A stretch of 64,000 bases of DNA from the IMG/VR virus record IMGVR_UViG_3300008459_000031, positions 1-64,000 of that record. The stretch is one strand, 5' to 3'. The position numbers were made by a program, and so were the translations under genes. This stretch comes from a virus. The notes below the pieces were generated by a model. It was not told the DNA's origin. It ran no database searches and saw nothing but the letters and a program-made list of their open reading frames with translations. This document shows, piece after piece, positions 18,935 to 37,275 of this stretch; positions within the stretch are counted from its first letter, which is position 1; every line of letters starts with the position of its first letter.

Positions 18935-21900
18935 TTATTTAGTTGATGTAGCAGGTAAGTCAAACCACTTAGCAGCTGTAGCTGGATCAGATGATTTTTC
19001 AATACCCCCTAATATTGGAATCATTGCTTCGAACTTAGCTAATAATTTGCTGTCCCCTTTTTGATGTATCCCAGACTTTCTTTGGTAGTATAACCCTTCT
19101 GTATCTCCTGTGAATATAGATGGGATAGCTTTGAATGCTACCATATCAACAAGCTCTATTGCTTTTGTAACAGGACGTACAGTTGCTGTAGGTGAGTTAG
19201 CAGCTTTTAAAAATTCTATAGGACGTACAAACTGAGTTAATTCTGTCTGCATACGTAAAGCTTGATATATTGCAAAGCTTTCAAACCATGAATCATCTTC
19301 ATCATCATCATCTGATAGTGACATTACAATCAAAGCACATAGAGTCCAGAATGCAATAGATACTACAGATCTTCTCATGTTCTGCTTCTCCATGTCTGTC
19401 ATCATCTTATAAACTTTAACACCATTACCAGCATTCTTATAAGTCTCTTTTATGAATCTCCATAGAGTTTCCATTGTACCTTCTGAGATAGTACCTAATT
19501 CTAAGTCACGATGAATACCACCACGAAGACCGTTATGTCCATAATGTTTACGAAGAGATGGGATAAAGTAACGACGGAATAACATAATCAATTTACCATA
19601 CCATCTTCTTTGAAGAATAGCATCATCGAATTTAGTTTTAACCTGGTTGGTTCTTTTGTTTATCCCTGATATCTTAGCCATAAATCTACTTCTATTGAAG
19701 TTGGCTACTTTAGGATCTACTCCGTATCTACCAGTTTTTTCATCTTTAACAAATACATCCCAAAGATTTGCATCTTCTCCTTTCTCATTTTTAATTACGT
19801 TTCCATCTTTGTCTTTAAGCTTTCCTCTATAGCTATCCATTAAAGCAAGCATTCTAGTAACTGCTGTCTCATGTTCAGCAATAGTTTGTAATGCCATTGG
19901 ACCTTCTTGTAAAAGCTTTAACATTCGTGGACCAGTCTTGTCTTCTTTTGTAGATCCTAGTACTTCCCCTAATGCATCAAAGTATCTAATAGCTTGCACT
20001 ATTTTAGTTTGTGGAGCAAAGGTTTTAAAGTCTTTCAATGATCCTAATCCACCTTCACTAGTTAAGTGGTAGATACCCTTAGCCCAAGTCATGTTCTTTT
20101 TATTAAAGAACTGTTGTGAGTGTGCTTCTTCCATCAAACGTACGTTATCGAGTAACATCTGATTAGTAGATTGAAGTAAGTTACCAGCTAAGTTTGCAAG
20201 AGCAGTATAAGATGCTACTTTATTTGATAATTTATTTGATGATATTTGCTTACCAAATATGTTTAAAGCAGATTTAAGTTCTTCTTCCCCAAAGAATATT
20301 TTATCAATCCATTCTGATAAGTGCTTAAAGTTATTTCCACCTTTACCAGCAGTCTGCATTTTAGTTCCTTTTAAGATCTTTGACATTCTGTGTAAAAGTG
20401 GATTGTTGTCAGCTGTTACTGCTAATACTTCTCTTTCTTGTATGATGTCTCTCATTAACATAACAGAGCCGACAATTTCAGATTTACTCTTAAACATGTT
20501 GGCCATTCCTCCAAAGAGAATTAACGAGCTAGCTACGTCTTTACTTACTAGTTTAGAATCTACAGGATTTGTGTAGAAGATAGGAATTGTTTTATCTCTA
20601 GCTTCTTTGTTAGCATTAATAACATCTCCGTAGTTTACATCAGTAGATAGGAATTGAAACGAATCTTTAACAAAATCTTTAGCTGCTGTAAAAGCTCCAT
20701 CTTTTTGTACTTTCTCTAATCCTTCTGATCTAACTGATGGTACTATATAACTAAACTTATCCCAAGAGTTTTTAGCAAGACTATTCTGCCCTAACATCTT
20801 CTGCTTTTTGTAGTAGAAGTTCATCATGGCTTTATAGTAAGTAAATGCAGGAGCATTATTTTTTAATGCCTCATATTTAGCATTTTTATACTTATCATTA
20901 GGACGTACTGCTGAAATCTTCCACTGCTCATTTATAGGATCATACATCTTATCCATCAAAGATTTTAGTGAAGATTGTTCCCCTTCTAAATATTGAATCT
21001 TATCTGGATCTATAAGAGCTGCATCTTTTGATTTCTCTTCTACTAATTTTTTACGTACATTTTTAAGCTTCTCTGATAGTACATTATACTTTTCTTGAGA
21101 ATCTTTACTTGGTACAGAGTTTTCTTTATACCATTTAGCAACTTCTTTATAGTATTCTCTTACAGTAGATTTATTTTTTAACCACTCTTGTATCTCTTCG
21201 TCACCCTTCTCTGGTTTATTATACTTTGTAGCTAAATCTGCATACATTTTAGATTCAGCATTCTTATATCTAGTGACATCAAATTCTTGTACAAATGAAA
21301 GAAGAGTTACTTTCTCTGACTTTTCTTTATCAGGATTGTAAACCATGTATTCAACTTCTTCTAAAATATCTTCGTTGAATTTATTAGGATTTAAACCACT
21401 TCCTTTTGCTTTCTCAAATTCTTTATAAGCTGCAGCTAGTTCATAGATATCATTCTGTGTCTCATCATTTGCTTGATACATTTTATCTTTAAGCATAGAT
21501 GCAAACATTTGTATCCCTACTTGAGAAGAATAAATAATTGGATCTAGAAGATAACTAAATGCAGACTTATCTTTTTGAGCTTCAGTAAGTTCTTTGATTA
21601 ATGTATCTCTTGTAATCAGCTTATTTTCTAACTGCTTTATATTCAATGCTTTTAATGCAGCAAACTCATCAGCTTTATCTAGCTTTTGAGATTTTATTTT
21701 ATTGTACTCCTCATCTCTTTCAATAGCTACTAAACGATCATTGTCTTTGATATTTTGTATGAGTTTATTAATCTCATCATTTATATCATCGTTTGAATAT
21801 TCCATTAGCAAGTCAGCCATAAGTGGGATACCTACTTCTCTATAGGTTTCCTCCACCATATTCATTCTATGTATAGCTTCAGTAATTTTCTTTTCAAATA

Positions 21901-23482
21901 ATGAAAGTGATTTAAATTTAGGGTCGTCTTGTAACTGTTCTACACTTAAACCTTTTTTAAGTCTTAACAAGTCTTTTGAAACTGCAAAACCAATTTTTTG
22001 CATTATACTATCTTTCCCATCTACTCCACCATAAAAGCTTCTTACCCATTCACTTACTTTGTATAATTCATGAATAAGCTGTAATCTTTCTGTGGTAGGA
22101 AGAACTTCATTATATCTCTCATTAATTTTATCTAAGTTTTCTTCAGCTCTGTCTGCAAGTCTAGATGCATAATTTACAAACTCTACTAATTCTTCTACAT
22201 CTTGAATCTTATCAAGTCTTTTCTGCATGAGAGATAATCTTTCTATTGCAGTTTCATTTAAATCACCAGGAGTACTTTTAAGTTTGTTGATGCTCTCTTG
22301 TGTTGCAATACGAACATCATCTACAATCTTCATGAAGTCTTCTTCTCTCTTATTTACTTTACTATCAGCCATTAAGAAAGTAATAGAACCTTTTAAATCT
22401 GCAGCAGTATATCTTCTTTCTAGAAGCATACGTGTCAGATCTTCAACTGCAGATGGTTTAGCCTCTGTACCAAATAACTTTGATAATGCTCTTACAACTC
22501 TATTAAATATTCTTTGGAAGAGATTAGGGTTTTCTCTTTTAATCTTAGCCCCACTTAATCCCATAGCAGATACTAGAACTTCTTTATTTAAAGCTTTCTC
22601 ATCTAGTTCTGGGTATGCTTCTTTAACTTTTTGATAAAGATTAGTAGACTTCAATTCATTTATAGCTCTTACTACTACAGGATGATCTTCCCCTAAAAGT
22701 TCTACAAGAATATGACTGAATTCGTGGATATGAGTATCCTCAGTCATAAGTAGTGGATTTAGAACAACTGTTAATATTTTACCTGGAGTGTTAATAACTC
22801 TACCTTTTACTTCTAGAGTAGGGTCAATTTTAACTTCTATGTTTATCCCAGCTTTAGCAAAGTCAGATATAAAATTGTTAATATCTTTTTGTATAGAAGG
22901 CATCTCTGCTCTTTCCATATCTTCAAGATCTAAACGACTATCTAAATCTTCGAATAAATCTAGTTGTTTTCCAGCTTCTCTAGATAATTTTTTTGTTAGT
23001 TCTTGTTCAGCTTTTGCTATGCTCAACTCTTCTTTACTTAATTCAATTACTCTTGGTCTAAGTATAGGGTTAAATTCATAAGCATTTAGAGCAAACTCAT
23101 ATGGATCTACTCTGTTAGGTAACTTAGTGGCTACATTTTTAGTCAGAGCTAGAGTTGCTTTTTGAGAAATTTGGACATCGTAATGAGTCTTACCTTTATC
23201 TTTATATGGGGTTATTACTGCAAGTGGAGTAGGAGAACCATAATATAAGGCTGCTACTGCATTTAAATCTGCTATCTCTTGAAATAGAACATCTTGCATA
23301 GTAACCGATATCCTATTCCCAAGACCTATAACACCATCATTAAGAAGAATGTAATTGATCGTATAAGGATCTACTACATCGTTATTTGCTAACTGATTAT
23401 CTATGTATTCAATAACCTTACTAGTCGTAGGAGATTTTCTTACATTTCCGTTTTCGTCTGTTTTAAAGTATCCACATGCCAT
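18935..23482 (-). CDS. giant probable virion cargo protein with zincin-like domain (1515 aa)
   Basis: Last gene of the virion block, next to the virion RNA polymerase. HEFSH at residues 253-257 (HExxH) within THIHEFSHILVELLG is a zincin-type metalloprotease site and is preceded by a beta-strand pair (GRVINTPGKILTVVLNPL) as in that fold. The middle 700 residues are long charged helices and coiled coils. Near the C-terminus a hydrophobic helix (about 1373-1391) is followed by SDDDDEDD. In characterised crAss-like phages the proteins encoded beside the RNA polymerase are packaged in the capsid and delivered with it. A role in cleaving cargo or host proteins after ejection is inferred. A possible promoter box lies just before the ATG. 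Confidence 0.75.
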   Translation of the reverse strand: MACGYFKTDENGNVRKSPTTSKVIEYIDNQLANNDVVDPYTINYILLNDGVIGLGNRISVTMQDVLFQEIADLNAVAALYYGSPTPLAVITPYKDKGKTHYDVQISQKATLALTKNVATKLPNRVDPYEFALNAYEFNPILRPRVIELSKEELSIAKAEQELTKKLSREAGKQLDLFEDLDSRLDLEDMERAEMPSIQKDINNFISDFAKAGINIEVKIDPTLEVKGRVINTPGKILTVVLNPLLMTEDTHIHEFSHILVELLGEDHPVVVRAINELKSTNLYQKVKEAYPELDEKALNKEVLVSAMGLSGAKIKRENPNLFQRIFNRVVRALSKLFGTEAKPSAVEDLTRMLLERRYTAADLKGSITFLMADSKVNKREEDFMKIVDDVRIATQESINKLKSTPGDLNETAIERLSLMQKRLDKIQDVEELVEFVNYASRLADRAEENLDKINERYNEVLPTTERLQLIHELYKVSEWVRSFYGGVDGKDSIMQKIGFAVSKDLLRLKKGLSVEQLQDDPKFKSLSLFEKKITEAIHRMNMVEETYREVGIPLMADLLMEYSNDDINDEINKLIQNIKDNDRLVAIERDEEYNKIKSQKLDKADEFAALKALNIKQLENKLITRDTLIKELTEAQKDKSAFSYLLDPIIYSSQVGIQMFASMLKDKMYQANDETQNDIYELAAAYKEFEKAKGSGLNPNKFNEDILEEVEYMVYNPDKEKSEKVTLLSFVQEFDVTRYKNAESKMYADLATKYNKPEKGDEEIQEWLKNKSTVREYYKEVAKWYKENSVPSKDSQEKYNVLSEKLKNVRKKLVEEKSKDAALIDPDKIQYLEGEQSSLKSLMDKMYDPINEQWKISAVRPNDKYKNAKYEALKNNAPAFTYYKAMMNFYYKKQKMLGQNSLAKNSWDKFSYIVPSVRSEGLEKVQKDGAFTAAKDFVKDSFQFLSTDVNYGDVINANKEARDKTIPIFYTNPVDSKLVSKDVASSLILFGGMANMFKSKSEIVGSVMLMRDIIQEREVLAVTADNNPLLHRMSKILKGTKMQTAGKGGNNFKHLSEWIDKIFFGEEELKSALNIFGKQISSNKLSNKVASYTALANLAGNLLQSTNQMLLDNVRLMEEAHSQQFFNKKNMTWAKGIYHLTSEGGLGSLKDFKTFAPQTKIVQAIRYFDALGEVLGSTKEDKTGPRMLKLLQEGPMALQTIAEHETAVTRMLALMDSYRGKLKDKDGNVIKNEKGEDANLWDVFVKDEKTGRYGVDPKVANFNRSRFMAKISGINKRTNQVKTKFDDAILQRRWYGKLIMLFRRYFIPSLRKHYGHNGLRGGIHRDLELGTISEGTMETLWRFIKETYKNAGNGVKVYKMMTDMEKQNMRRSVVSIAFWTLCALIVMSLSDDDDEDDSWFESFAIYQALRMQTELTQFVRPIEFLKAANSPTATVRPVTKAIELVDMVAFKAIPSIFTGDTEGLYYQRKSGIHQKGDSKLLAKFEAMIPILGGIEKSSDPATAAKWFDLPATSTK

Positions 23483-23499: not shown

Positions 23500-26400
23500 T
23501 TATATTGAGCAGGACATATTTCCAGCTTCAATTGGTAATTTTCCTCTGTCTAATAAATAAGTAGTGCTTCTTGCTATGTTGTTCTTTATTTGAGGAAGTA
23601 CTTCTTTATTTTGAATCTTCATATAATTTAACCCATAAAGCTTCACACTACCTTTAGTTGTATACGTACCTTCTAATCTTCCGTATTGAGTCATAATAGA
23701 TCCATCTCCAGATTTTACTTGGTCTAACTTAGCAAATACTGCACTTGTACCAGTCTTACGATTTCTTACTACTATAAAGTTATCAGTGCTCTTATCTAAA
23801 ATAGTCTCTGTTCCTGAAGAAAGTGTATCATTACTAACCCTTTTAACTAAGTTACTTCCACCAGCTCTCATCTTTCCAAATGCAGCCATGTAGTTAATAA
23901 TGTCTTGTGAATCAAAGTACTGAGATTGTCTAGCTTTAAATGCTTCTTGTCTGAAGAAATCTAAAATGCTTATTCTATCTTGTACTTCTACTCCAGGTTC
24001 TGATGGGCCTTGCTCAACCTTCATAGGAGTTGTGAAGAATTCTAGAGGAACAATATCAGCATATGAACTAGCTCCTTGTCTAAATCCATTTACAAAGAAG
24101 CTGTGCATTGCTAGTTTTATAGCAAAGAGTTTGACTTCTCTTATACCAGCAGCAACTGATGGATCAGTATAGTTACCTTCACTATCCATTGTTTTATCTC
24201 CTGGTACATAGAATTGTGGGTTATACAGTAGATTATACAATCCGTCTGTATAAGATTGCTTTTCAGTTGCAGTAGCTTTAAATGTATTATCAAACTTAAT
24301 TCCATAGTATCTAGCTTCTGTATCTGTATCAGGTTCTAAGTTAGCTATGAATGGGTTTGTATTCAATGCACGATACTTTGTTTTTAAAGCTTGTAATTTT
24401 GTATAAATATTATTATCTGGCTTATTATACAAGTTTGTCATGCTATCCATCAAAGAAGCAAATGGAGAGCCAGGTTTCATAAGCATCATGAACATCAAGT
24501 TGTAATCAATCAACTGATGCATTTCAGGAGTTAACTCTTCAGTACTTACATTCCCTAGTAGCCCTTTCTTAAATAGTTTAAAAGATTCAGATAATCTAGT
24601 AGGGAAGAATACTCCTGCAAAGTCAAGACCGTTTCTTAATAGATTATCGTAACCTCTTTCTAATCCATAATTAGACTTCTCACCGATAAATTGGTCAGTG
24701 ACATTATCCATAGACCCTGGTTCAAAGAATATTGGAGTCTTTAGAGAATCTTCATTCTGATCAAATGTATTAGCTCTATCTAAATAAGATTGTATAGAAC
24801 CTATCCTTCCCAATCCATCCATTGAATCTGGGGTTACTCTCTTCCCTAGTTTCATAAGAGTTTTACCAGCTTCATAGAACTTCATGAAGTTAGCAAGCAT
24901 CTTTAATTGTTCATCTACATTTCTATTCTCTTTACTTAAGTTTTCTAATTCTTCTACATTCATGTTAAATGTACCGGGCTTATTTAGATTTAAGTAGCCA
25001 TTTGGATCTTTTAGTTTAGAAGTAAAAATTTTATAAGCTGTTGTAAGATTCATCAAATTACCAGCTTCGGTGGTCTCAAAGTAATTTGTAAATTCTTTAA
25101 CCAATGGTTGATTTAAGAACAAAGAACAAAGTCTTGAAGAATACTCTGGGAAGAATCCTGAGAATAAAATTCTGATACGAGATGTTAAAACTGTATCGTT
25201 AAGTTCATATTGTACGGGAAACTTAGCAGCATCCACAGCAGCAGATAAGAATAATGATATGCTTTTATCTGTTGGATAAGATCTGCTTGTAGTATCAAAT
25301 GGATTTTCATAAGAAGTCTTTATATAATCTCTATATTCCTCTCCATTAATTTTGATAGAGTAATCGTTATGTATTCTAACATTACCATGTTGTAATACGT
25401 TACGTGCAGCTAGTGCATTTGCATAGATACCACGAAGCTTATTTCCAAGAGTACTACGACGAGCTGTAATAGCTTCTGTGTTATAATCACTCCAATCTAA
25501 TTCTTTTCCAAGGTCTGGAGATTTAGATTTAATCTCATCTACAACAGTATTCAATGTAGTATCATCAAGTGGAGTAAACACTTCTTTGAAGTGAGCAGGG
25601 TTTGAATACACTGCCTCCATCAAATCTAATATTACATTATTAATCTGTTCATTAGACAACTTCGATAAGTTCTTTGATTTTATTATACTAGCATAATCTA
25701 CAGATACTTTTTCTAGTTGTTTAGTTTCTTTATTAACTCTAACTTCTGGGAATAAGAGATTTAACTTATCGACGTCAAAGTCAGATCCCATCAATTTAGT
25801 TAGCTGTCCCGGTACAACAACTGCTTTTGCATAGTTGTTCGGTAAGATTTTAGCAATCTTAAGCATGACTACAGAAGCTTTATCCTGATTAGGGATACGA
25901 TAACCTACAATTCTTCTAAGTTCTTCTGGGATAGAGTCTAAAGATTGTCCTGGTTGTATTCCAAACTTACGAGCTACATCCTCACGGATCATAACTTCTG
26001 CATGGATTACTCTTCTACCATCTTCAGATATTTGTAAGAACTTTAATGCACCACTTCCATCAACTTCTGATCCACCTAATTGTGTAACCTGAACTGCTTC
26101 AAACCCTTTAACTTTCTGTTTGAATACTTCATTGTTTATTACAGACATTATGATAGACTCATACTTCTTATTGTATAGAGGTATATCAAGTGGAGCTACA
26201 AATCTAGGAGTACCATCATTTTCAAATACAATATCTAAAGCTCTTTCATAGTTAGAGTGAAGCTCTTTTGTTCTAGCTTGCTTGAGTACTTTTTCTCTTA
26301 CAGTTTTTAATATATCTAACTTAGCTGCATTTATCTTATTGATATCATTGCTTTCAGAAGCTTTATAAAGCTCAGTTAATCCAAATTCATCTTCAACCTT

Positions 26401-29400
26401 CTTTGTATCTCTAGCAAGTTTCTCTTCTATTGAAGCATGATAAAGATCTTTTAAATCTTGACCTGAGATATTTATATCTAAAATTCCAGGAGAGATTTGG
26501 TACATGGTAGCATCTTCAACATTGGCCACCATATTTTTTTTAATCTGACGGTTGAGAGCATTTTTTGGATCTTCTTTTGCAGAAGGGATAAATTGTGGGA
26601 ATCTTAATCCTGATGAATTATGAGTATTAACTCCTGCTTCTCCTAGCATTCCCAATCTACCTGTATGTCTATAGATATTTCTCTTAGATAGCTTTTTACC
26701 AGATACAAAGTTTACTACATGCACTGGCTCTAAACCTGTATATTCTTCTACAGATTCCATTCTTCTTCGTATATCTTCTAAGAATGGAGAATTTTTAGTA
26801 TAAGATTTTAATAGTACGAAGTAAGAGTTCTTTTGAGAATCAACAGATAATGTTCTTCCAACATTGTTGTAAGACATTTTTTCGTAGTATCCTTTATGTC
26901 CTAATGTTGGAACAGGATCCCCAACTTTTTTACCATCAGGAACAAATCCTTTTTGATATACAAACTCTCCTGTTACCTTATATGCTTTATAAGCTTCTTC
27001 ATCTTCTCTCTCCCACTTCCCTAAACCTTGCATAATGCTTCTATGCATATCTAAGCTAATGAAAGCCTGAGCATCTGTAGATTCGTATTTACCTGGCCTA
27101 AATGCATCAGAAATTGTTTTAGCCTCTTCTTCAGAAACACCACTTTTAACTAGCCCAATATATATGTTATCAGCTTGAGCATTTGTTTCTACAGTTTGTT
27201 CTGGAGTAAGATTCATTCTGATATCTCTCATAGCAATCTCATTGAACTCTTTCATCATTCCATAAGATTCACTAATGTCTCCAACCATAACCATTTTGGT
27301 TCCAGGAGTAGTCAAGTGACCCATACGTTTGTAGAAGTCTTCTTGACTTTTATGTAGAGCTCTATTTCCACGGAATAGTTTTACTATTTCGTTTCTCATA
27401 ATAGCATTCTCTACTACAAATCCTTTTAGCAAGCCTTTTAGATCTACTCCGATAGCTCCACTCATTCCAATCTCTCCTAATTTTTTTGCTTTCTTTAACT
27501 CTGCCTCTAAAGCTAAAGCTTGAGAAGAGAAGTATTCAAGCATCTCATTAGTCATTCTATCTAAACGAGCATCAAATAATTTCTGAGATTCTGCATCCAT
27601 AGACTTATCTACATAATCCATGATCTTATCACTCATCTGAGTTACTCCATTAATCCTTACTCCAGGATCATCTTGCAGAGTTTCATCTGTTACTATATAT
27701 TTACCATCAGCATTCTTAGCTCTAAACTGGAAGAAAGATTCTTTGAATGCATTACCAAGGTATTGACCATTCTCTACTAATCTTGTTGGATCTCCAGAAG
27801 CTGTATGATAACCTTCTTCTAAATCTGCATAATCTATTTTACCATTCAAGGCACTTTTTACAACTGCTTTAGCTTGGTTTACTCTCACTAAGTCTTGTAC
27901 AATTTGAGCTTTAATCAAATCTTTATGAGACATAAATTGTTTAGAGAAAGCATTCTTGCTAATTCTAGGTACTTTTACAAATGTAAATTTGTCACGGTCT
28001 GATTGAATTGGTACAGCAATATATGTATATTCACTATCTGTTCTGTTATTTATAAAAGCATTTATAAGAGTAACCATTGTATCGACTTCTGAAAAGTCTT
28101 CATATGCAAGAGCCTCTTCATATTCTGACCCCATCTTACTTGCATCAAAGTCAAATACCCCAAACTCTTCTAAAAACTTGCCATCCATTAGATGCTTAAA
28201 TAATACACTTGTAAACTCAGGTCTCCCTTTTACATTTATGAATTCATCTTTAAGATATTCTTTTAGAAGTTCTGCAGAGTTTTGAGATTTCTCTTTCAAT
28301 ATACTTACAATCTGAGCCATATGTGTCTCAGTGTTTGTACCGTAAATTGCTTTTCCCTTTCCATTAACAAAGCTGATACCTGCAATAGGCATAGTTGATT
28401 TGAATATCTTTGCAAAATCTATAGCTGCAGATTTACGAGCAGTTATAAAATCTAAGTTTCTATCATTCTTTACAGATACAAATTCAGCAAGTTCTGAAGA
28501 TTTGTCTCTAGTAAACTCTCCTACTTGACGAATGAATGACAGAAGTTGAGTTTTAATAGTTCTCATAGAATCTACTCCTGTCTTACCGTCTATTCCATTA
28601 TCAGCAATAACTTGTAATATCTTTTGAGTATCTCCTACATTAGTATTATCTCCTATGTATAATCCTAATTGAAACATAGTTTCTGCTAAATGAACTACAA
28701 CAGGATTTACTTGTCCATTTATATTAGCCACATTTACATTACCAAATTTTGGTAATAACTTCTCAGCTTCTTTCCAAGCTTTTGCAGCATCTAGTACTCT
28801 CTTTTTATTTGTAGTAAGGGTCTCTATAACTGTCCCATCTTCTTTAGTGATGATGTCTTTTCTATATAAGGCCATTCCATCTACTTCAGAAATAAGTGTA
28901 TTTTTCCACTTCTCTGCAATAGCTGTTGGAATGTCTTTACGATTAGGATTGAAGACTTCAACATAGTTTACTTTATCATCTACCTTTTGTTTTAGCATTA
29001 CAAATTCAGTATTGCTAAGTGCAAATGCAGAGAATATCATAGCCTTTTCAGACTCTGTTAATTCGTTTAAGAAGTTAAGAACATTTCTTAATTGAGGCTT
29101 TAACTTAACTTCTTGTACAAGAGCATTCCTCATTGCAGTATAAGTCTGCTTACCACTAAATATGTTTAATAACTCTTTGAATACAACATCTCTATTTAAG
29201 TATGTTTTAACACCTAAGCTATTATATTCATTTGACATAATAGTAGATAGCAATTCTCTTACTCTTGCCGTAAGTCTTTTTGCAGGGCTAATCTCCATAC
29301 TACTTTGTCCATATATTTTTCCTACTGCTTCATCTATGATTGCAAATTCATCGTTCAATTGATCTAATTCATCTTCAGCTTCTGAAGGAGTTTCTAGATC

Positions 29401-30603
29401 AGTATCGTATTTAAACTTAGAATCAATGTATATACCAGCATCTGTAAGTCTGTTTACTAAAGCTGTTCTCCAACCTTCTTGAATAATATTTCCAGATTTA
29501 GATTGTACTACATCTTCCCAAGTGGTGTATATGTTTTTATAAACTGTTCTCTTACGTAGATTGTCCCCCATTGCAAAAACTAAATTGTTTTTAGCAAGTA
29601 CATCTCTAAGAGCTTGCAGATTTTCTTGAGATTTATTTTCTGTATAGGCTTCTTCAGCAGCTATAGTTTCAATCATTGCAGCATAGTCTGTTGACATGTT
29701 TAATTTAGAACCATCTGCTTTAGCATATATTTTTGTTAAGAATGAGTTTGCTATTGCTCCTTTATTAGTTCCAGATCCTAAAGCAATTGTAGATTCAAAA
29801 CTATTTTTATAGCTATTTCTCATCTTTAGAAAGTCTGTATACAGAACATCGATAGCATCTGTAATAGTCTTATCTCCTAATCCAGGACGACTTAAGTATG
29901 CTTTTTTAGTTCCTTTAAACTTTTCTGCATTTCTGAATACTCCTCTACCAAGAATAGAAGAGTTCATTTTATTACTTTCAATTAAAGAATAAACCTGCTT
30001 TAATCCAACACTGTCACTAAACATTGCTTTAATGAAGTTCCACAAATCTCTAAAGAACTTAGCAATCTTACCAGGAATAGACTTTTCAGTAGCTTGATCA
30101 GTAAGAACATACTCTCTGAATTCCTCAGACATTTTTTCTTCAAGAACTAACTTATAAGCATCTTCATCAGAAATTTCTGGGAATTGATTTTTAATAGCAG
30201 CTATTTCAGAGTCAGTAGGTTTTCCAAAACTTTTCTCAGCTTCTGCATATAACCCTTGTCTTTGCTCTTCACTAAGCATTGTTCTAAATACTAAGTGATA
30301 AGCTTCGTGATACTCTGTACCAACTTCAGCAGCAGACCAAAGGTATATCGATGCATTCTCTACATATCCGTGAACTTCTTCATTTCCAACAGATTGTGCA
30401 GTCTCAAAGATATTTACAGCATCTTCTCCAAATCTTTCTGCTAACCAAGACTTTGCTTTATTAGATCTATCAGAATTATTTACATAAAACATTGAAGGAA
30501 CATTCCCCATGTATTTATCCCAAAGGAAATATGCTAAGTTTTCACCTTGAACACTTACAAGGTCTTTCCATTCTTTAGATGATGTGTTTGGACAAAATGC
30601 CAT
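23500..30603 (-). CDS. giant virion RNA polymerase with N-terminal zincin-like domain (2367 aa)
   Basis: Single-subunit crAss-type RNA polymerase. DFDVD at residues 1608-1612 is the metal-binding DxDxD of the second double-psi beta-barrel. It sits in a context (KILPNNYAKAVVVPGQLTKLMGS before it, KLNLLFPEV after it) that I recognise as the crAss-like catalytic loop. The best-studied relative, phi14:2 gp66, is carried in the virion and transcribes early genes after injection. At the N-terminus HEAYH (99-103) is an HExxH zincin site followed by an acidic helix, so a protease-like domain and a polymerase share one chain. The size is in the range of the known family (about 2,200 aa). It lies between two other giant genes with gaps of 3-17 bases. 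Confidence 0.9.
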   Translation of the reverse strand: MAFCPNTSSKEWKDLVSVQGENLAYFLWDKYMGNVPSMFYVNNSDRSNKAKSWLAERFGEDAVNIFETAQSVGNEEVHGYVENASIYLWSAAEVGTEYHEAYHLVFRTMLSEEQRQGLYAEAEKSFGKPTDSEIAAIKNQFPEISDEDAYKLVLEEKMSEEFREYVLTDQATEKSIPGKIAKFFRDLWNFIKAMFSDSVGLKQVYSLIESNKMNSSILGRGVFRNAEKFKGTKKAYLSRPGLGDKTITDAIDVLYTDFLKMRNSYKNSFESTIALGSGTNKGAIANSFLTKIYAKADGSKLNMSTDYAAMIETIAAEEAYTENKSQENLQALRDVLAKNNLVFAMGDNLRKRTVYKNIYTTWEDVVQSKSGNIIQEGWRTALVNRLTDAGIYIDSKFKYDTDLETPSEAEDELDQLNDEFAIIDEAVGKIYGQSSMEISPAKRLTARVRELLSTIMSNEYNSLGVKTYLNRDVVFKELLNIFSGKQTYTAMRNALVQEVKLKPQLRNVLNFLNELTESEKAMIFSAFALSNTEFVMLKQKVDDKVNYVEVFNPNRKDIPTAIAEKWKNTLISEVDGMALYRKDIITKEDGTVIETLTTNKKRVLDAAKAWKEAEKLLPKFGNVNVANINGQVNPVVVHLAETMFQLGLYIGDNTNVGDTQKILQVIADNGIDGKTGVDSMRTIKTQLLSFIRQVGEFTRDKSSELAEFVSVKNDRNLDFITARKSAAIDFAKIFKSTMPIAGISFVNGKGKAIYGTNTETHMAQIVSILKEKSQNSAELLKEYLKDEFINVKGRPEFTSVLFKHLMDGKFLEEFGVFDFDASKMGSEYEEALAYEDFSEVDTMVTLINAFINNRTDSEYTYIAVPIQSDRDKFTFVKVPRISKNAFSKQFMSHKDLIKAQIVQDLVRVNQAKAVVKSALNGKIDYADLEEGYHTASGDPTRLVENGQYLGNAFKESFFQFRAKNADGKYIVTDETLQDDPGVRINGVTQMSDKIMDYVDKSMDAESQKLFDARLDRMTNEMLEYFSSQALALEAELKKAKKLGEIGMSGAIGVDLKGLLKGFVVENAIMRNEIVKLFRGNRALHKSQEDFYKRMGHLTTPGTKMVMVGDISESYGMMKEFNEIAMRDIRMNLTPEQTVETNAQADNIYIGLVKSGVSEEEAKTISDAFRPGKYESTDAQAFISLDMHRSIMQGLGKWEREDEEAYKAYKVTGEFVYQKGFVPDGKKVGDPVPTLGHKGYYEKMSYNNVGRTLSVDSQKNSYFVLLKSYTKNSPFLEDIRRRMESVEEYTGLEPVHVVNFVSGKKLSKRNIYRHTGRLGMLGEAGVNTHNSSGLRFPQFIPSAKEDPKNALNRQIKKNMVANVEDATMYQISPGILDINISGQDLKDLYHASIEEKLARDTKKVEDEFGLTELYKASESNDINKINAAKLDILKTVREKVLKQARTKELHSNYERALDIVFENDGTPRFVAPLDIPLYNKKYESIIMSVINNEVFKQKVKGFEAVQVTQLGGSEVDGSGALKFLQISEDGRRVIHAEVMIREDVARKFGIQPGQSLDSIPEELRRIVGYRIPNQDKASVVMLKIAKILPNNYAKAVVVPGQLTKLMGSDFDVDKLNLLFPEVRVNKETKQLEKVSVDYASIIKSKNLSKLSNEQINNVILDLMEAVYSNPAHFKEVFTPLDDTTLNTVVDEIKSKSPDLGKELDWSDYNTEAITARRSTLGNKLRGIYANALAARNVLQHGNVRIHNDYSIKINGEEYRDYIKTSYENPFDTTSRSYPTDKSISLFLSAAVDAAKFPVQYELNDTVLTSRIRILFSGFFPEYSSRLCSLFLNQPLVKEFTNYFETTEAGNLMNLTTAYKIFTSKLKDPNGYLNLNKPGTFNMNVEELENLSKENRNVDEQLKMLANFMKFYEAGKTLMKLGKRVTPDSMDGLGRIGSIQSYLDRANTFDQNEDSLKTPIFFEPGSMDNVTDQFIGEKSNYGLERGYDNLLRNGLDFAGVFFPTRLSESFKLFKKGLLGNVSTEELTPEMHQLIDYNLMFMMLMKPGSPFASLMDSMTNLYNKPDNNIYTKLQALKTKYRALNTNPFIANLEPDTDTEARYYGIKFDNTFKATATEKQSYTDGLYNLLYNPQFYVPGDKTMDSEGNYTDPSVAAGIREVKLFAIKLAMHSFFVNGFRQGASSYADIVPLEFFTTPMKVEQGPSEPGVEVQDRISILDFFRQEAFKARQSQYFDSQDIINYMAAFGKMRAGGSNLVKRVSNDTLSSGTETILDKSTDNFIVVRNRKTGTSAVFAKLDQVKSGDGSIMTQYGRLEGTYTTKGSVKLYGLNYMKIQNKEVLPQIKNNIARSTTYLLDRGKLPIEAGNMSCSI

Positions 30604-30606
30604 TGG

Positions 30607-33600
30607 TTATTTATTTGTAATACATTTATTTTTCTTTCTCTCCCCTTCTTCAGCAGATTCTTTTATTACGTCTGATAAGCTTTGCATAGCTCCACCCATT
30701 GGATTCAAGCCTCTTAGTTCTGCTTCCATCTCTGCTTTAAGAGCTTTTTGCATTTCTGCATTAGGCTTTAAGTGTGCAAAAGGGTTAGAAGGGTCCATCA
30801 AAGGTACAGATTTTTGTTCAGTTTTTGGAGCAGCACCAAATAAATCTGCAGGTAATTCATCAACAACTACATCTAAAGTAGATTGTGCAACTGGGGCAGG
30901 AGCTGCCGGTGTAACAACAGCTGGTGTTGTGGGTTGAGTTTGAGTTTTAGAAAGTGATCCAGGTCCGTAGAAAGATTTAGCATTGTATATCACATAAAAA
31001 GGATCTACTTTTTGTTTACCAATTATATGATTTAAAACTTTAACTCCTTTTACTTCAGGGTTTGATTTCTGAAAATCATTGAATAGGTTTATAATTGCAG
31101 GACTTTGATTTGCTTTTTCTGTATCATTGTACTCAGCATCAGGATTGTCAGATATGTAAGATCCTGTAGCTGGATTGCTAAATTTATAACCTTTTGCTTT
31201 TAGCTCTTCATAAATTTCTTTCTCAGATTTATTAGCATCTATAACTATAAACTCAGATTCATTTATCTCACCTGCAATTGGCTGACCATATCTTTGAACA
31301 AGGAATGGAGTAGTAGTAGAAGATGCATTTAAGCCATCTCCAAACTGGCTGATTTGATCTTTACCTCTTTGGAAATTACCAAAATCAAAGTTTTGTGGAG
31401 CAACACTTGTGTGATGATACACAGTAACTACATTTTCTGGTGTTGTAGTTGCAGGTATTGCATTATCAGCAAGCCTAACAATTCTTAATATTCCATATTT
31501 AGAATCATTAGGTTCTTCAAAAACACCATTTTCATCTATAGCATCGATAGTTTGAATACCTCCAGCTTGATTTTTGTAATCCAAACTTGTAGAAGCCCCA
31601 TCATATCTTATACCTTCAATTTTTGTAGTTGCCTCAGAAGTTCTTTTGCTGCTACTTGCTGTAATAATTATAGTATCACCTACTTTCCAAGTAGAAGGTG
31701 AGGCTTTTTGAGCAGGAGCTAGTGTTGCAGGAGCAGTAGGGGCTTCGATGCTATCTAATACTTTTACAGCATTTGATACTTCTAATTGAGCTTGAGTTGC
31801 AATTCCTCCTCCAACACCTGTTAATGGTGTGAATTCAATTCCAACATCATAGAATGGGGATTTGTTAACACTGCCTGGAGAGTCAGTAGTTAAGATTACA
31901 TTAGCCCCTAGTCCTTCAGTTCTAGGTTCTGTGAATTCTTTATCACTATTTAAGTAATCAAAGTATGAAGGATACTCAATACCAGTAAGAGCACTAATAT
32001 AAGGTTCTGTGTTATTAATTCTATTGATATCAACTTGATACTTCTTATCCATAATAATGTCTAAGAATTCTTGTTTTAAGTTTGGAGTTACTCTTGCATA
32101 CTCAGCTTTCTCTCCTTTTATTGTAACTAGAGATTTCCATCCTTTTTCGTTAGTACCTAGCTCAGAGAATGTGAACTTAAATGGTTGCCCTAGTAAAGCT
32201 TTCTTAAGTTCATCTTCATTTATTCTGACAAGTTTGTTTGCAGATTTAGAGTAGAAAGTAAATAATACTTTACCATCTGTAAGAGTAACTTGAGACATGT
32301 ATTTCTTAAAGTCTTCTGTAGATATGTCTTCCCCTTCATTTAAATCTATTGCATCGTTTTCATCTGCAACTTCTACAGGAAGTTTATTTAATCCTACAAT
32401 CTCCCCGAATAGTTGAGCCTCAGGGTTTTCCTTAATTAAATGATTAACTGCAATTGTTCTTCCTTCTTCAGTCATAGACTTTGTAGAAGCCATTACAAGA
32501 GCAGGATTACCATTAGGATCTTTTACTATAATTGCTACTTGTCCAAGTGCAACATTGCTTGTATCGAATGGTAGATCATTTCCATTCTGATCCATGAAGA
32601 CTCGAATACCATCTTGAATTCTTACTACAGCAATATTTGAAGAACCTTTTACAATGTTTGAAGATGGATAGAAGAATATCTGACCATTAGATGTTCTAGC
32701 ATTAGCTATATTCGTAGAGTTAAAAAGCTTTCTACTAATAGTAGAAGATGCAGTAATTCCTTGCTTATAAAGATTATATATGTCTTGTCTAGATAATCCA
32801 GTATTCTCATCTGCTTTATAAGCAGCTAACATTCCTACTCTAACTGATTGACCATTAGGAAGTTGGGCAACTACGTAGATAGGAACTTGTTCCCAATATC
32901 TATCTTCTGTTAAATCTTTTTTGTTATTTTTTGTTTCAGGATTTTCAGAATTCCACCAATCACTAGATTCATCTACTTCAAATGTAATGACTGTACCTGC
33001 AGGAGTTATGTCACTATCTGTTAGCATTTCTGGATAAATAGAGACAGTCTCTCCACCTACCTTTTGCTCTATCATATTAGATACAGGATCTCCAGATTCA
33101 GTTACAGTTTGCTCTGTAAAATTAGAGTTAGATTTAATTTCCCCTTTAGCAAGTGGAGCATCTACAGGACCTTCTGCAACTACAGCAGTTACTTGTGGTT
33201 CTTCAGGATCTTTTTGATCATCGTCGAATGGAGATGGAGTCTCATTAAATGTTCTTTCTATCTGCTCCCACTGCTCTCTTTTCTGACGGATTATTTCAAG
33301 TTCTTCTGCTGTGGTTGTGCCATCCACCCCTTCCTCCGTAGATCCTGCTCTAGAATCGATATTCGTTGCTTCAGGCTCTTGCCCTTCAGTTGCAATGTCA
33401 GTTCCTTCGGTAGCGTTACTTGCTTGACGAAGTTTTTCAGATTCACGTTCTTCATTTATTCTTTGTATTAGTTCTTTAGATTTACGAATACTCTCTTCCC
33501 TTCTCTTAATCTTATTCTGAGTATTTCTAATTTCTTTCTTAGCAGCCTCTACATCTTGTCCAGGATAAGTTCCATCTGCTATCTTTTTAAGTTCAGTTTC

Positions 33601-36600
33601 TACAAGTTTTAACTGAGCTATTTCATCCTCTAATCTGCTAATTTTAGATTCTTCCCCTTTAGTTATTTCATCAACCTCTTCTTCTAGTGGGGCTTGTTCG
33701 ATTTCTTCTGCAACAACTTCTTCATCAGTATTTTCTTGAATATTAGAAGCTTTCTTTCTTTTAGCAAGTTCTTTAATTTTCTTAGTTAATAAAGCTTTGT
33801 GAGACTTTTTAATAGCCTTTAAAGTTTTAACATTTCCATCAGCATTAAACTCTGCTTCTGTAAATCCGGCTTCCATAGCTACTTGTCTTTCAGCAGCTAG
33901 AATCTCATCTATCTCAATTAAGTCTTGTTTAATTACTTCAATCTGAGCTCTTATCTGACCATCTGTTAGACCAGCAGTTTTACCAATGTCAGTAGTAGCT
34001 ACTAATTTTTCAAGTTCCTCTTCCATTTCAACAATGGTATCTGGATCTTCTACAGAGTCTAATACTTCAAATTGTTTAGCCTTACCTTTTAACGTATCTT
34101 CTTGAGCTGCTACCTCTTTCTTATGTTTCTTAAGTACATCTTCTGTAATAACTTCTCCACGAACTCTTTGAATTTCTTTAAACTCTTCTGCAGACATGTT
34201 AGCTATAGCTTCTACATCTCTAATAGAAGATGCCTGTACAAGAATAGCATAAGTAATTGTATCAGCTATTGCTGAATCTTCTTCATTCTGATCATCTAGC
34301 ATCCAAGTAACTTCGTTACCTGTAGCAGCATCAGTTAATCTAACTCCTATTCTATTACCTTCTTCATCATAGATAATAGCATCAGTTGGAGTTTCATTTA
34401 GATTTAAATATGTTCTTCCATTTATAGTAAATATAAATCCACCAGAAGATACTGATATATTTCCTAAAGCTGCGGCTTCTGCATCTGATAGTTCTTGTGC
34501 ATATTCTGTATAACTTGCTGTTGGAGCAAATTCATCTCTTCTTTGCAGTTGTCCATTCTGATATTCTACAGTTCTTTCAGCAGTTCTTTTCTTATCTCTT
34601 GCATCTTTCTCCTTTGCTAATGCTGCTGCAGCAATTGGGGGAAGAGATTCTTCATCAATAGCTTCTAACATATCGTCAGTCATGCTACTAAATTTAGCTC
34701 TTTCTTCTTTTTCTAATTGCTCTAATTCTTCTACTTTTGCCTCAGCTGCTGCTATTATTTCTGCAGGAGCATCTTCAGGCATATTCTCTCTAACTTCATC
34801 AGCTGTTTCTGCATTCTGAACTACTTGAGCAGCTCTATCTGCAGAAGCCTTCTTCTCTTCCTGCTGTCTACGGGCATATTCAGCTTCTACATATAAATCC
34901 ATGTTTTCTGGATTACGACGTAAGTTATCAAAAGATGTTACAATACCTTCTCTTCTTTTTACTAAGTTCTGCAGGGCCCATGTGGCAGTTTGAAACTCTT
35001 CAGCATCTGCAGGGTTTAATGCATACTTAGCTTGAAATATCTCATTAAATTTTTCAAATAGTTTAGCTTCAGGAGATATTGTAGATTTAAATGCAAAGCT
35101 TAGTTTACCCTCTTCATCTATATTTACTTGACCTATTTTTACTCTGTAAGTAAAATCTTCTTTTGATATTGCCCCTAACTCTGGAGCAATTTTAACTAAG
35201 TGGTCATATACATCATCTATCTGTTCGTCTATAACATCTATGTCCATTAAGCCTGCATGCAGTACTTGAGAATATTGATTTCTAACTAACCTTTGAAGTT
35301 CTTTGTTATTTTTAGTTTCTTCGTTTTGAAAAGAATCTAAAAGTTTTGGGAGTAAAGTATTTTTAGGTTGGTATTTAGCTAAGATATCTTGTACTTGCTT
35401 AGATCTTTTTATAGATAATTCTACTTTATTTTTAACATCTTGTACAAGTTCAGATTGAGTTTTACCAGTCTGAGTTTTTAGACTAGAATTCATTCTATAT
35501 CCAAATGCTTTTTTAAACTCATCTTCTGACATAGATGCAGCATCATCTAACTGCTCCAACATGTAATCAGTAGCACCCATAGCATTCATTCTTGCTGCTT
35601 CTGATCTAATTAGTTGAACACGAGCTCTTTCTGCATCTTGTTTTGCAACAGCTTTTTGAACTGGTGTAGCTTCTTCTGATTCTAAAACTTTATTATTCTT
35701 TTCTATTATGTTTACCAATGCTGTATTATAAGCATTAGATTCCATATTTTCTATAACTTTTGTTAAGCCACCACTGTTTATATATTGTAAAACTTTAGCT
35801 GTATTAGCTGTACGAGCTTTTGCTAGTTTAGAATCTGCTCCAGCTATACGACTTACAGCTCCTGTTCCTCCCCCTACAATAGCTCCAATCAATATATTTT
35901 CTAAACCTTCTTTACTTCCTAATGTTTTACTTAAGGATTCAGACAATGATTTAGACATGTCTCCAATACCATCACTAAATTTATCTCCATAATAATCTCT
36001 TGAAAACTCAGATGCAGCAAATTGAGAACCTTCTTGGAATCCTTCTGTAGCCATATTTTTAACAGGGCCTCCAAATATTCTAGATGATTTTGTCCAAGCT
36101 TTTGCAAACTTACCATCCATTCCAGCTTCAACTAATTTTCCAGAAGCATCTTTGGTAGCTTTATACATCTGACCTTCTCCAATAGCTGCTCCCTTAAACA
36201 TTTTACCAAACATAATAATGTTAGATGTAGCTAGGATTGGAAGGTTAATAGCAAAAGCAGCATTACCAGCAGCATCAGCAGATTCCTCTATCCCGTTCAT
36301 TACATCAGTTGGGACTTCTTGGCCAGGATTTTCTTCTTGCCATTTAGCTACCTGTTCTTCTATAAATCTAGTTCTAGTCTCACGAGCTTCAACAGATGCT
36401 TCTGCTAATGACATTTGAGTAGCTACTCCTAATCTTTGAGTAGCAGTAGATATCCTAGCCATTCTAGCAGCTTTTTCTAGATCTTCTCCAGTCTGTATAG
36501 CTTTACCAGCTCTGTATAATGCTAGCTGTCTACTACCTAATGTCGAAGCATCTTCTACAACATTAGCAGCTCTTGCACCTTTTTCAGCTAATCCTGCAAT

Positions 36601-37275
36601 ATCTAATGCAGTATCCCCAGCTTTTAAGGCTTTACCAGCTCCAGCAATTCTGCTAGCTAACCCTAGTTCTCCTGTTCCAAGCCACATTGTAGCAATAGAA
36701 CCTAATGTATAACCAAGACCGTTAGCTACTTTGTCTGCCCAAAAGTTTGCAGTACCTAGATTAGATAGTAAGCTTCCGTTTATTTCTTCTTGTGTATAAT
36801 AGTTTGGTAGCTTCTCTTGAGCCCAGTCATTTACTGCATCTACTTGTTTACCTACAAAGTTGTCATAGTATTCACCACCAGTAGCTAATGAACCTAGACC
36901 TGCTAATACTCCTACTGTGTTTTCATAGATAGCTCCTAAAGTAGTAATACCAGCTTTAGTTAATCCATTTACCCACTTATCATATGTGGTTTGCCTTTGA
37001 GCTCTTTCTTCATTTAAATCTGCAAATGGATTAAGTGGTACCCCATATTCTCTGTAGCTTTCTAATGGATCTGTATAAATAGCAGATACATTTTGAACCC
37101 TAGAAGCAATATCAAAAGGGTTTATATTTCCTGTATTCGGAGCTACAACTGGTTTACCAAAAAAATCTTCTACAAAACTTTTTTTTGGGTCTGCATTATC
37201 TCCAGAGGGAGATACTATATTTGTTTTAGGTAATCCTGTGATCTCACTTATAAAGCTTGTAGATTCTTCTGACAT
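30607..37275 (-). CDS. giant probable ejected protein with ADP-ribosyltransferase-like C-terminus (2222 aa)
   Basis: N-terminal 500 residues contain several glycine-rich hydrophobic stretches (for example ILIGAIVGGGTGAVSRI near 460-476), suggesting membrane insertion during DNA ejection. The centre (about 550-1400) is Glu/Lys/Ala-rich coiled coil. A C-terminal segment (about residues 1945-2105) reads as an ADP-ribosyltransferase-like fold: YHHTS, then GDGLNASSTTTPFLVQRYG, ending with PFYVIYNAKSF. The His and Tyr positions look right; the usual final Glu is not obvious, so activity is uncertain. Pro/Thr/Ala-rich linkers flank this domain. The combination of ART-like and zincin-like domains in neighbouring giants fits the polyvalent-protein concept of phages. 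Confidence 0.75.
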   Translation of the reverse strand: MSEESTSFISEITGLPKTNIVSPSGDNADPKKSFVEDFFGKPVVAPNTGNINPFDIASRVQNVSAIYTDPLESYREYGVPLNPFADLNEERAQRQTTYDKWVNGLTKAGITTLGAIYENTVGVLAGLGSLATGGEYYDNFVGKQVDAVNDWAQEKLPNYYTQEEINGSLLSNLGTANFWADKVANGLGYTLGSIATMWLGTGELGLASRIAGAGKALKAGDTALDIAGLAEKGARAANVVEDASTLGSRQLALYRAGKAIQTGEDLEKAARMARISTATQRLGVATQMSLAEASVEARETRTRFIEEQVAKWQEENPGQEVPTDVMNGIEESADAAGNAAFAINLPILATSNIIMFGKMFKGAAIGEGQMYKATKDASGKLVEAGMDGKFAKAWTKSSRIFGGPVKNMATEGFQEGSQFAASEFSRDYYGDKFSDGIGDMSKSLSESLSKTLGSKEGLENILIGAIVGGGTGAVSRIAGADSKLAKARTANTAKVLQYINSGGLTKVIENMESNAYNTALVNIIEKNNKVLESEEATPVQKAVAKQDAERARVQLIRSEAARMNAMGATDYMLEQLDDAASMSEDEFKKAFGYRMNSSLKTQTGKTQSELVQDVKNKVELSIKRSKQVQDILAKYQPKNTLLPKLLDSFQNEETKNNKELQRLVRNQYSQVLHAGLMDIDVIDEQIDDVYDHLVKIAPELGAISKEDFTYRVKIGQVNIDEEGKLSFAFKSTISPEAKLFEKFNEIFQAKYALNPADAEEFQTATWALQNLVKRREGIVTSFDNLRRNPENMDLYVEAEYARRQQEEKKASADRAAQVVQNAETADEVRENMPEDAPAEIIAAAEAKVEELEQLEKEERAKFSSMTDDMLEAIDEESLPPIAAAALAKEKDARDKKRTAERTVEYQNGQLQRRDEFAPTASYTEYAQELSDAEAAALGNISVSSGGFIFTINGRTYLNLNETPTDAIIYDEEGNRIGVRLTDAATGNEVTWMLDDQNEEDSAIADTITYAILVQASSIRDVEAIANMSAEEFKEIQRVRGEVITEDVLKKHKKEVAAQEDTLKGKAKQFEVLDSVEDPDTIVEMEEELEKLVATTDIGKTAGLTDGQIRAQIEVIKQDLIEIDEILAAERQVAMEAGFTEAEFNADGNVKTLKAIKKSHKALLTKKIKELAKRKKASNIQENTDEEVVAEEIEQAPLEEEVDEITKGEESKISRLEDEIAQLKLVETELKKIADGTYPGQDVEAAKKEIRNTQNKIKRREESIRKSKELIQRINEERESEKLRQASNATEGTDIATEGQEPEATNIDSRAGSTEEGVDGTTTAEELEIIRQKREQWEQIERTFNETPSPFDDDQKDPEEPQVTAVVAEGPVDAPLAKGEIKSNSNFTEQTVTESGDPVSNMIEQKVGGETVSIYPEMLTDSDITPAGTVITFEVDESSDWWNSENPETKNNKKDLTEDRYWEQVPIYVVAQLPNGQSVRVGMLAAYKADENTGLSRQDIYNLYKQGITASSTISRKLFNSTNIANARTSNGQIFFYPSSNIVKGSSNIAVVRIQDGIRVFMDQNGNDLPFDTSNVALGQVAIIVKDPNGNPALVMASTKSMTEEGRTIAVNHLIKENPEAQLFGEIVGLNKLPVEVADENDAIDLNEGEDISTEDFKKYMSQVTLTDGKVLFTFYSKSANKLVRINEDELKKALLGQPFKFTFSELGTNEKGWKSLVTIKGEKAEYARVTPNLKQEFLDIIMDKKYQVDINRINNTEPYISALTGIEYPSYFDYLNSDKEFTEPRTEGLGANVILTTDSPGSVNKSPFYDVGIEFTPLTGVGGGIATQAQLEVSNAVKVLDSIEAPTAPATLAPAQKASPSTWKVGDTIIITASSSKRTSEATTKIEGIRYDGASTSLDYKNQAGGIQTIDAIDENGVFEEPNDSKYGILRIVRLADNAIPATTTPENVVTVYHHTSVAPQNFDFGNFQRGKDQISQFGDGLNASSTTTPFLVQRYGQPIAGEINESEFIVIDANKSEKEIYEELKAKGYKFSNPATGSYISDNPDAEYNDTEKANQSPAIINLFNDFQKSNPEVKGVKVLNHIIGKQKVDPFYVIYNAKSFYGPGSLSKTQTQPTTPAVVTPAAPAPVAQSTLDVVVDELPADLFGAAPKTEQKSVPLMDPSNPFAHLKPNAEMQKALKAEMEAELRGLNPMGGAMQSLSDVIKESAEEGERKKNKCITNK

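Follow-up and report, generated by a model that had tools for sequence, protein, structure and literature searches.

An ART-like module with altered catalytic positions in a probable cargo protein of a crAss-like phage

The locus raises the question whether a very large protein of a crAss-like phage carries an ADP-ribosyltransferase (ART) domain near its end and, if so, whether this domain acts by catalysis or by binding. We analysed a stretch of 64,000 nucleotides, hereafter the window (positions 1 to 64,000 of the IMG/VR record IMGVR_UViG_3300008459_000031), whose source phage is crAss-like, judging by its capsid and ring proteins. The carrier protein of 2222 amino acids is encoded in a single open frame without interruption (Table 1). 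Its N-terminal ~400 residues (74-468) aligned with gp47 of PhiCrAss001 at 25% identity (blastp, E=1e-23), PHROG 32390 matched residues 88-476, and a relative search obtained one close relative of the N-terminal region. Mass spectrometry places PhiCrAss001 gp47 in the virion, and a model of ejection has been put forward (PMC10172136). Packaging of the 2222-aa protein is plausible because its N-terminal part resembles this virion protein, and by analogy with this distant relative it probably travels in the virion and is ejected into the host.

Table 1. Features of the carrier protein, its ART-like module and the adjoining gene (window coordinates)
Feature	Position	Strand	Remarks
2222-aa carrier protein	30607..37275	-	residues 74-468 resemble PhiCrAss001 gp47 (cargo/RNAP-associated protein)
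2367-aa neighbour, crAss-like virion RNA polymerase-like	23500..30603	-	DFDVD motif and HExxH
ART-like module, residues ~1948-2106	30958..31434	-	limits are where similarity between carriers starts and stops; alignments; AF2
YHHTS, residues 1953-1957, strand 1, His1954 at the ART His position	31405..31419	-	His in 9/9; strand in both AF2 models
GDGLNASS, residues 1979-1986, strand-2 region	31318..31341	-	Asn1983 at the position of Tyr/Phe/Trp in canonical PolyVal ARTs
DPFYVIYNAKSFYG, residues 2091-2104, strand 5	30964..31005	-	Pro2092 and Phe2093 at the canonical Asp (-5)/Glu (-4) positions

A first-pass annotation of the window had read an ART-like domain into positions 30955-31440 (residues 1946-2107) from three motifs in a given order. 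We located all three in that order, YHHTS at residue 1953 (31419), GDGLNASS at 1979 (31341) and PFYVIYN from residue 2092 (31002). A pattern for the ART-like motif order gave a single match among six large late proteins and none among 2000 residue shuffles, a weak, post hoc result since the pattern was written after the domain had been seen. Better evidence that the module is a real unit comes from its conservation and the selection acting on it. About 55 residues across the module are invariant in nine non-identical relatives (the window and eight other loci). The module is under purifying selection: codon comparisons of the window with its relatives gave dN/dS values of 0.09-0.23, rising to 0.5 in comparisons with locus L010, and many polar residues in the putative pocket loops are among those kept invariant.

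Two AF2 models were built; their input sequences overlap almost entirely, and the models are therefore not fully independent. The first, with the window module as lead member (8 sequences; pLDDT 65, pTM 0.62), placed strands and helices in an ART-like order, and the model led by L010 (9 sequences) reached pLDDT 73 and pTM 0.70. In Foldseek searches of the PDB, tankyrases took ranks 1-4 for the window-led model (best E 0.58), with a diphtheria-toxin homologue at rank 15. For the L010-led model, PARP4, a diphtheria-toxin homologue and tankyrases took ranks 1-5 and PARPs filled most of the remaining top 24; rank 12 was an anti-CRISPR protein (6kyf), which we take to be the ART AcrIF11. The ART ranks thus agree across 350,542 PDB chains, with no single match significant (best E 0.29 across models, every match above 0.25, query TM-scores of ART matches 0.28-0.41) and with a small number of proteins accounting for many of the matches. 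The best BFVD matches reached E 2.5e-3 with probability 1.00, and several were named PolyVal ART, including one from cr130_1.

Profile-profile similarity was weak. The hhalign scores of the module against PolyVal ARTs exceeded those of all column shuffles (31.2 against a maximum of 17.8, 23.3 against 21.3 and 24.1 against 18.5), at probabilities of just 7-52% that varied with the alignment chosen, and the strand-5 match was not recovered by hhalign; it is a reading by eye together with the AF2 secondary structure. No Pfam or PHROG profile matched the module. The gathering score of PF18760 was not reached by any member, with no match in the window protein and six others at E<=10 or in L010 and L021 at E<=1, these last two modules having been searched against Pfam only, with no ART match; the ART-PolyVal search of the genome record was likewise negative. 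Pfam hits to Tn7_TnsC_Int, DUF937 and AHH (E 0.06-0.2) were dismissed, as they involved one or two members and mostly short stretches, and PHB depolymerase matches in a PDB sequence search were set aside as chance. Altogether, the models support an ART fold for the module, as the first-pass annotation had suggested; the structural matches were almost exclusively ARTs of the diphtheria-toxin/PARP type in solved structures and PolyVal ARTs in viral models, with weak single E-values.

Canonical domains of this kind are present in other crAss-like phages, where, unlike the module, they are readily detected by Pfam. ART-PolyVal (E 7e-18 to 1e-26) was found in cr85_1 gp056, cr271_1 gp47, ctcc615 and cr130_1 gp80, and it lies near the C-terminus in the first three, which are large cargo-type proteins. 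Two of these are also similar to the window protein in their N-terminal part (cr85_1 gp056, E 7e-22; ctcc615, E 5e-6), and cr85_1 gp056 is annotated by reference to PhiCrAss001 gp47. By eye, GKGLYLSS and FEEIVV of cr85_1 gp056 align with GDGLNASS and DPFYVIY of the window. We also observed that two genes with canonical ARTs, cr4_1 gp27 (L100, 8713-14124) and cr130_1 gp80 (L045, 5698-11922), contain in-frame stops under table 11. Stop codon reassignment is known in some crAss-like phages, and these stops are possibly reassigned codons.

The comparison with canonical relatives shows how the putative active site has changed. Thirty canonical relatives were picked with patterns containing FNPNQIK. 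Of these, 28 keep the strand-1 His, 28 have an aromatic residue (Y/F/W) in strand 2, and 24 have an acid in strand 5, at either -4 or -5. The module family has the strand-1 His (His1954 in the window) in 9/9 members, as in the DTX/PARP-like ART superfamily. The strand-2 aromatic of the ART-PolyVal/Tox-ART-HYD2 clade is replaced by Asn in 9/9 (Asn1983), and on an ungapped reading of strand 5 its Asp/Glu is replaced by Phe at -4 (Phe2093), preceded by Pro or Ser at -5 (Pro2092), again in every member. The nearest acid, Asp2091 at -6, is present in 7/9 members; it is Ala in L010 and L021, where all other motifs are kept. As read from these alignments, the triad of the module is degenerate (H-N-F). 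The earlier suspicion of a degenerate or different catalytic residue was therefore well placed and can be specified as Tyr to Asn and Glu/Asp to Phe after Pro/Ser, while of the conserved triad sought among homologues only the His held up.

We further studied how the module is distributed. Scans of IMG/VR yielded the loci L001, L007, L008, L009, L010, L012, L013 and L021 and the fragment L004; L011 is a second record whose match statistics and frame are the same as those of L010. The module occurs once in each of ten carrier records and once in the window's own record. A crAss capsid gene was found in 6 of the 11 carrier records, the window's included, and the remaining records are fragments of 23-60 kb. 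Among the collections searched, carriers were viral contigs only: tblastn identified no real relative in phage records (window query at E<=1, L010 and L021 queries at E<=10) or in plasmids (E<=1), none was found in the contigs of the genome collection, and DNA patterns for strands 2 and 5 retrieved no carrier beyond those already known.

Between most carriers the module is 50-85% identical, and outside it the proteins mostly show 22-35% identity or cannot be aligned. Only the window and L001 are alike throughout the compared part (80%), and a few pairs also share stretches adjoining the module. Its distance from the protein ends differs between carriers, which when complete measure 1478-3241 aa, apart from one open frame of 6253 codons in which the L021 module lies (record IMGVR_UViG_3300034374_009468). 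The carriers are very large multidomain phage proteins with shuffled domains, in keeping with polyvalent proteins. Judged from these alignments, the module is a mobile cassette exchanged between crAss-like carriers.

In L021 the module is bracketed by the strings ADIEKRRQEEL and INAKYDAELAALE, and near-same strings bracket a different stretch in L007. The strings ADIE[RK]RRQEEL and INAKYDAELAALE recur with near-identical DNA at L021 9626-10201, L007 9437-9748, L008 9959 and L013 9365, and they might possibly be recombination handles for payload swapping.

The gene adjoining the carrier encodes a protein of 2367 aa which resembles crAss-like putative RNA polymerases (24-25%, E down to 5e-24). 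Its DFDVD motif is at residue 1608, and an HExxH (HEAYH) is at residue 99. In PhiCrAss001 it is gp47 that has such a motif (HEAFH), which suggests that this domain, like the module, has moved between carriers. A further protein of 1515 aa (18935-23482, minus strand) carries HEFSH at residue 253 and had no Pfam match.

Based on these results, we consider it quite likely that the module is an ART-fold, PolyVal-related cassette in a probably ejected cargo protein, with its His kept and Asn and Phe fixed at the aromatic and acid positions. The module would be related to the PolyVal ARTs that other crAss-like phages have towards the C-terminal end of cargo-type proteins, and it passes between crAss-like carriers as a cassette. 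Its carrier would be packaged and ejected into the host, where the module would exert its effect in the early phase of infection. The NAD-orienting His would be retained, with the fixed Asn in place of the nicotinamide-stacking aromatic and the fixed Phe in place of the catalytic acid. If the fold is that of an ART, there is about an even chance that the module is a pseudo-ART binding nucleotide, nucleic acid or a host protein; an active non-canonical mono-ART without a Glu of its own, like the H-Y-phi PARPs, holds a sizeable minority share, and some other activity takes the rest.

Loss of the Glu alone does not imply inactivity, because PARPs with a hydrophobic residue in its place are active mono-ARTs, the H-Y-I/L/Y enzymes working by substrate-assisted catalysis (PMC9189837). 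In the same way the module could mono-ADP-ribosylate a host protein with Phe for Glu/Asp, the Asn or an invariant neighbour (the second His, or Gln33, Ser35 and Gln36 of the module) assisting, and the invariant His and the selected polar residues of the putative pocket loops fit such an enzyme. However, the aromatic kept in nearly all canonical relatives is also gone from every member; we know of no active H-N-phi ART and regard this activity as possible but doubtful. A near-canonical enzyme, in which Asp2091 is the HYD-clade catalytic Asp, is improbable. PolyVal ARTs do use a strand-5 Asp (PMC5512222), and a one-residue bulge would place this residue correctly in the seven members that have it, but L010 and L021 retain everything else with an Ala there, and the aromatic is Asn throughout. 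It is equally improbable that the module is an unrelated alpha/beta unit with coincidental motifs: model confidence is moderate and no family-level sequence match was found, yet two models, each led by another member, put ARTs first in two structure libraries, and comparable crAss-like proteins have ARTs recognised by Pfam close to their C-terminal end.

The first-pass annotation had also proposed that the ejected domain could modify the RNA polymerase of the host in the manner of T4 Alt. Its place in a gp47-like protein, next to a virion RNAP-like gene, would suit this proposal; however, Alt is an R-S-E enzyme (PMC5512222), and inspection of the alignment showed no such motif of Alt or VIP2 in the module, where H lies in strand 1 and N and F occupy the other two positions. 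With the catalytic positions altered, no sign of any target, and RNA polymerase one candidate among many, the Alt reading was rejected and we hold it to be very unlikely. We favour a virion-delivered pseudo-ART over a non-canonical mono-ART; a binding role is somewhat likelier because the aromatic is lost as well as the Glu. Tentatively, the horizontally exchanged H-N-F clade might catalyse a new reaction, either NAD-dependent or directed at RNA, or be a recurrent injected pseudo-ART that neutralises host NAD/ADP-ribose-based defence by binding. ARTs are reported to outnumber by a wide margin every other predicted protein-modifying domain in the polyvalent proteins of phages, with postulated targets (PMC5512222), and a literature search for degenerate ARTs returned nothing on phages. 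A small, delimited, selected and swapping family without two of the three catalytic positions offers a concrete test of catalysis versus binding.

Among known systems, ART-PolyVal (Pfam PF18760; the Tox-ART-HYD2 clade of Iyer et al. 2017) has the predicted fold and element order in common with the module: a [YF]H-x-T start that includes the His, a G-x-G that precedes strand 2, a strand 5 of hydrophobic character, and carriage in very large phage polyvalent or cargo proteins, other crAss-like phages included. The module differs in being unmatched by the Pfam model, in having His rather than Gly after the first His, in its Asn for the strand-2 aromatic and Phe after Pro/Ser for the strand-5 Glu/Asp, in Y[DN]xKSFYG where ART-PolyVal has FNPNQIKS, and in what looks like an insertion, with one more helix, ahead of strand 4. 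The H-Y-phi mono-PARPs (PARP7, 10, 14 and 16) likewise have a hydrophobic residue in place of the catalytic Glu, but they retain the Tyr where the module family has Asn. T4 Alt shares the presumed delivery together with the phage genome, but belongs to the R-S-E clade, whereas the module belongs to the H-x-x type and has altered residues. Over its N-terminal ~400 residues the carrier is related to PhiCrAss001 gp47, which ends in an HExxH (zincin-like) region; the ART start motif was sought in gp47 and not found. Carriage in an ejected protein is plausible by analogy. The module would be a variant related to known PolyVal ARTs, in which the always-same replacements at the catalytic tyrosine and acid point either to new chemistry or to a binding role.
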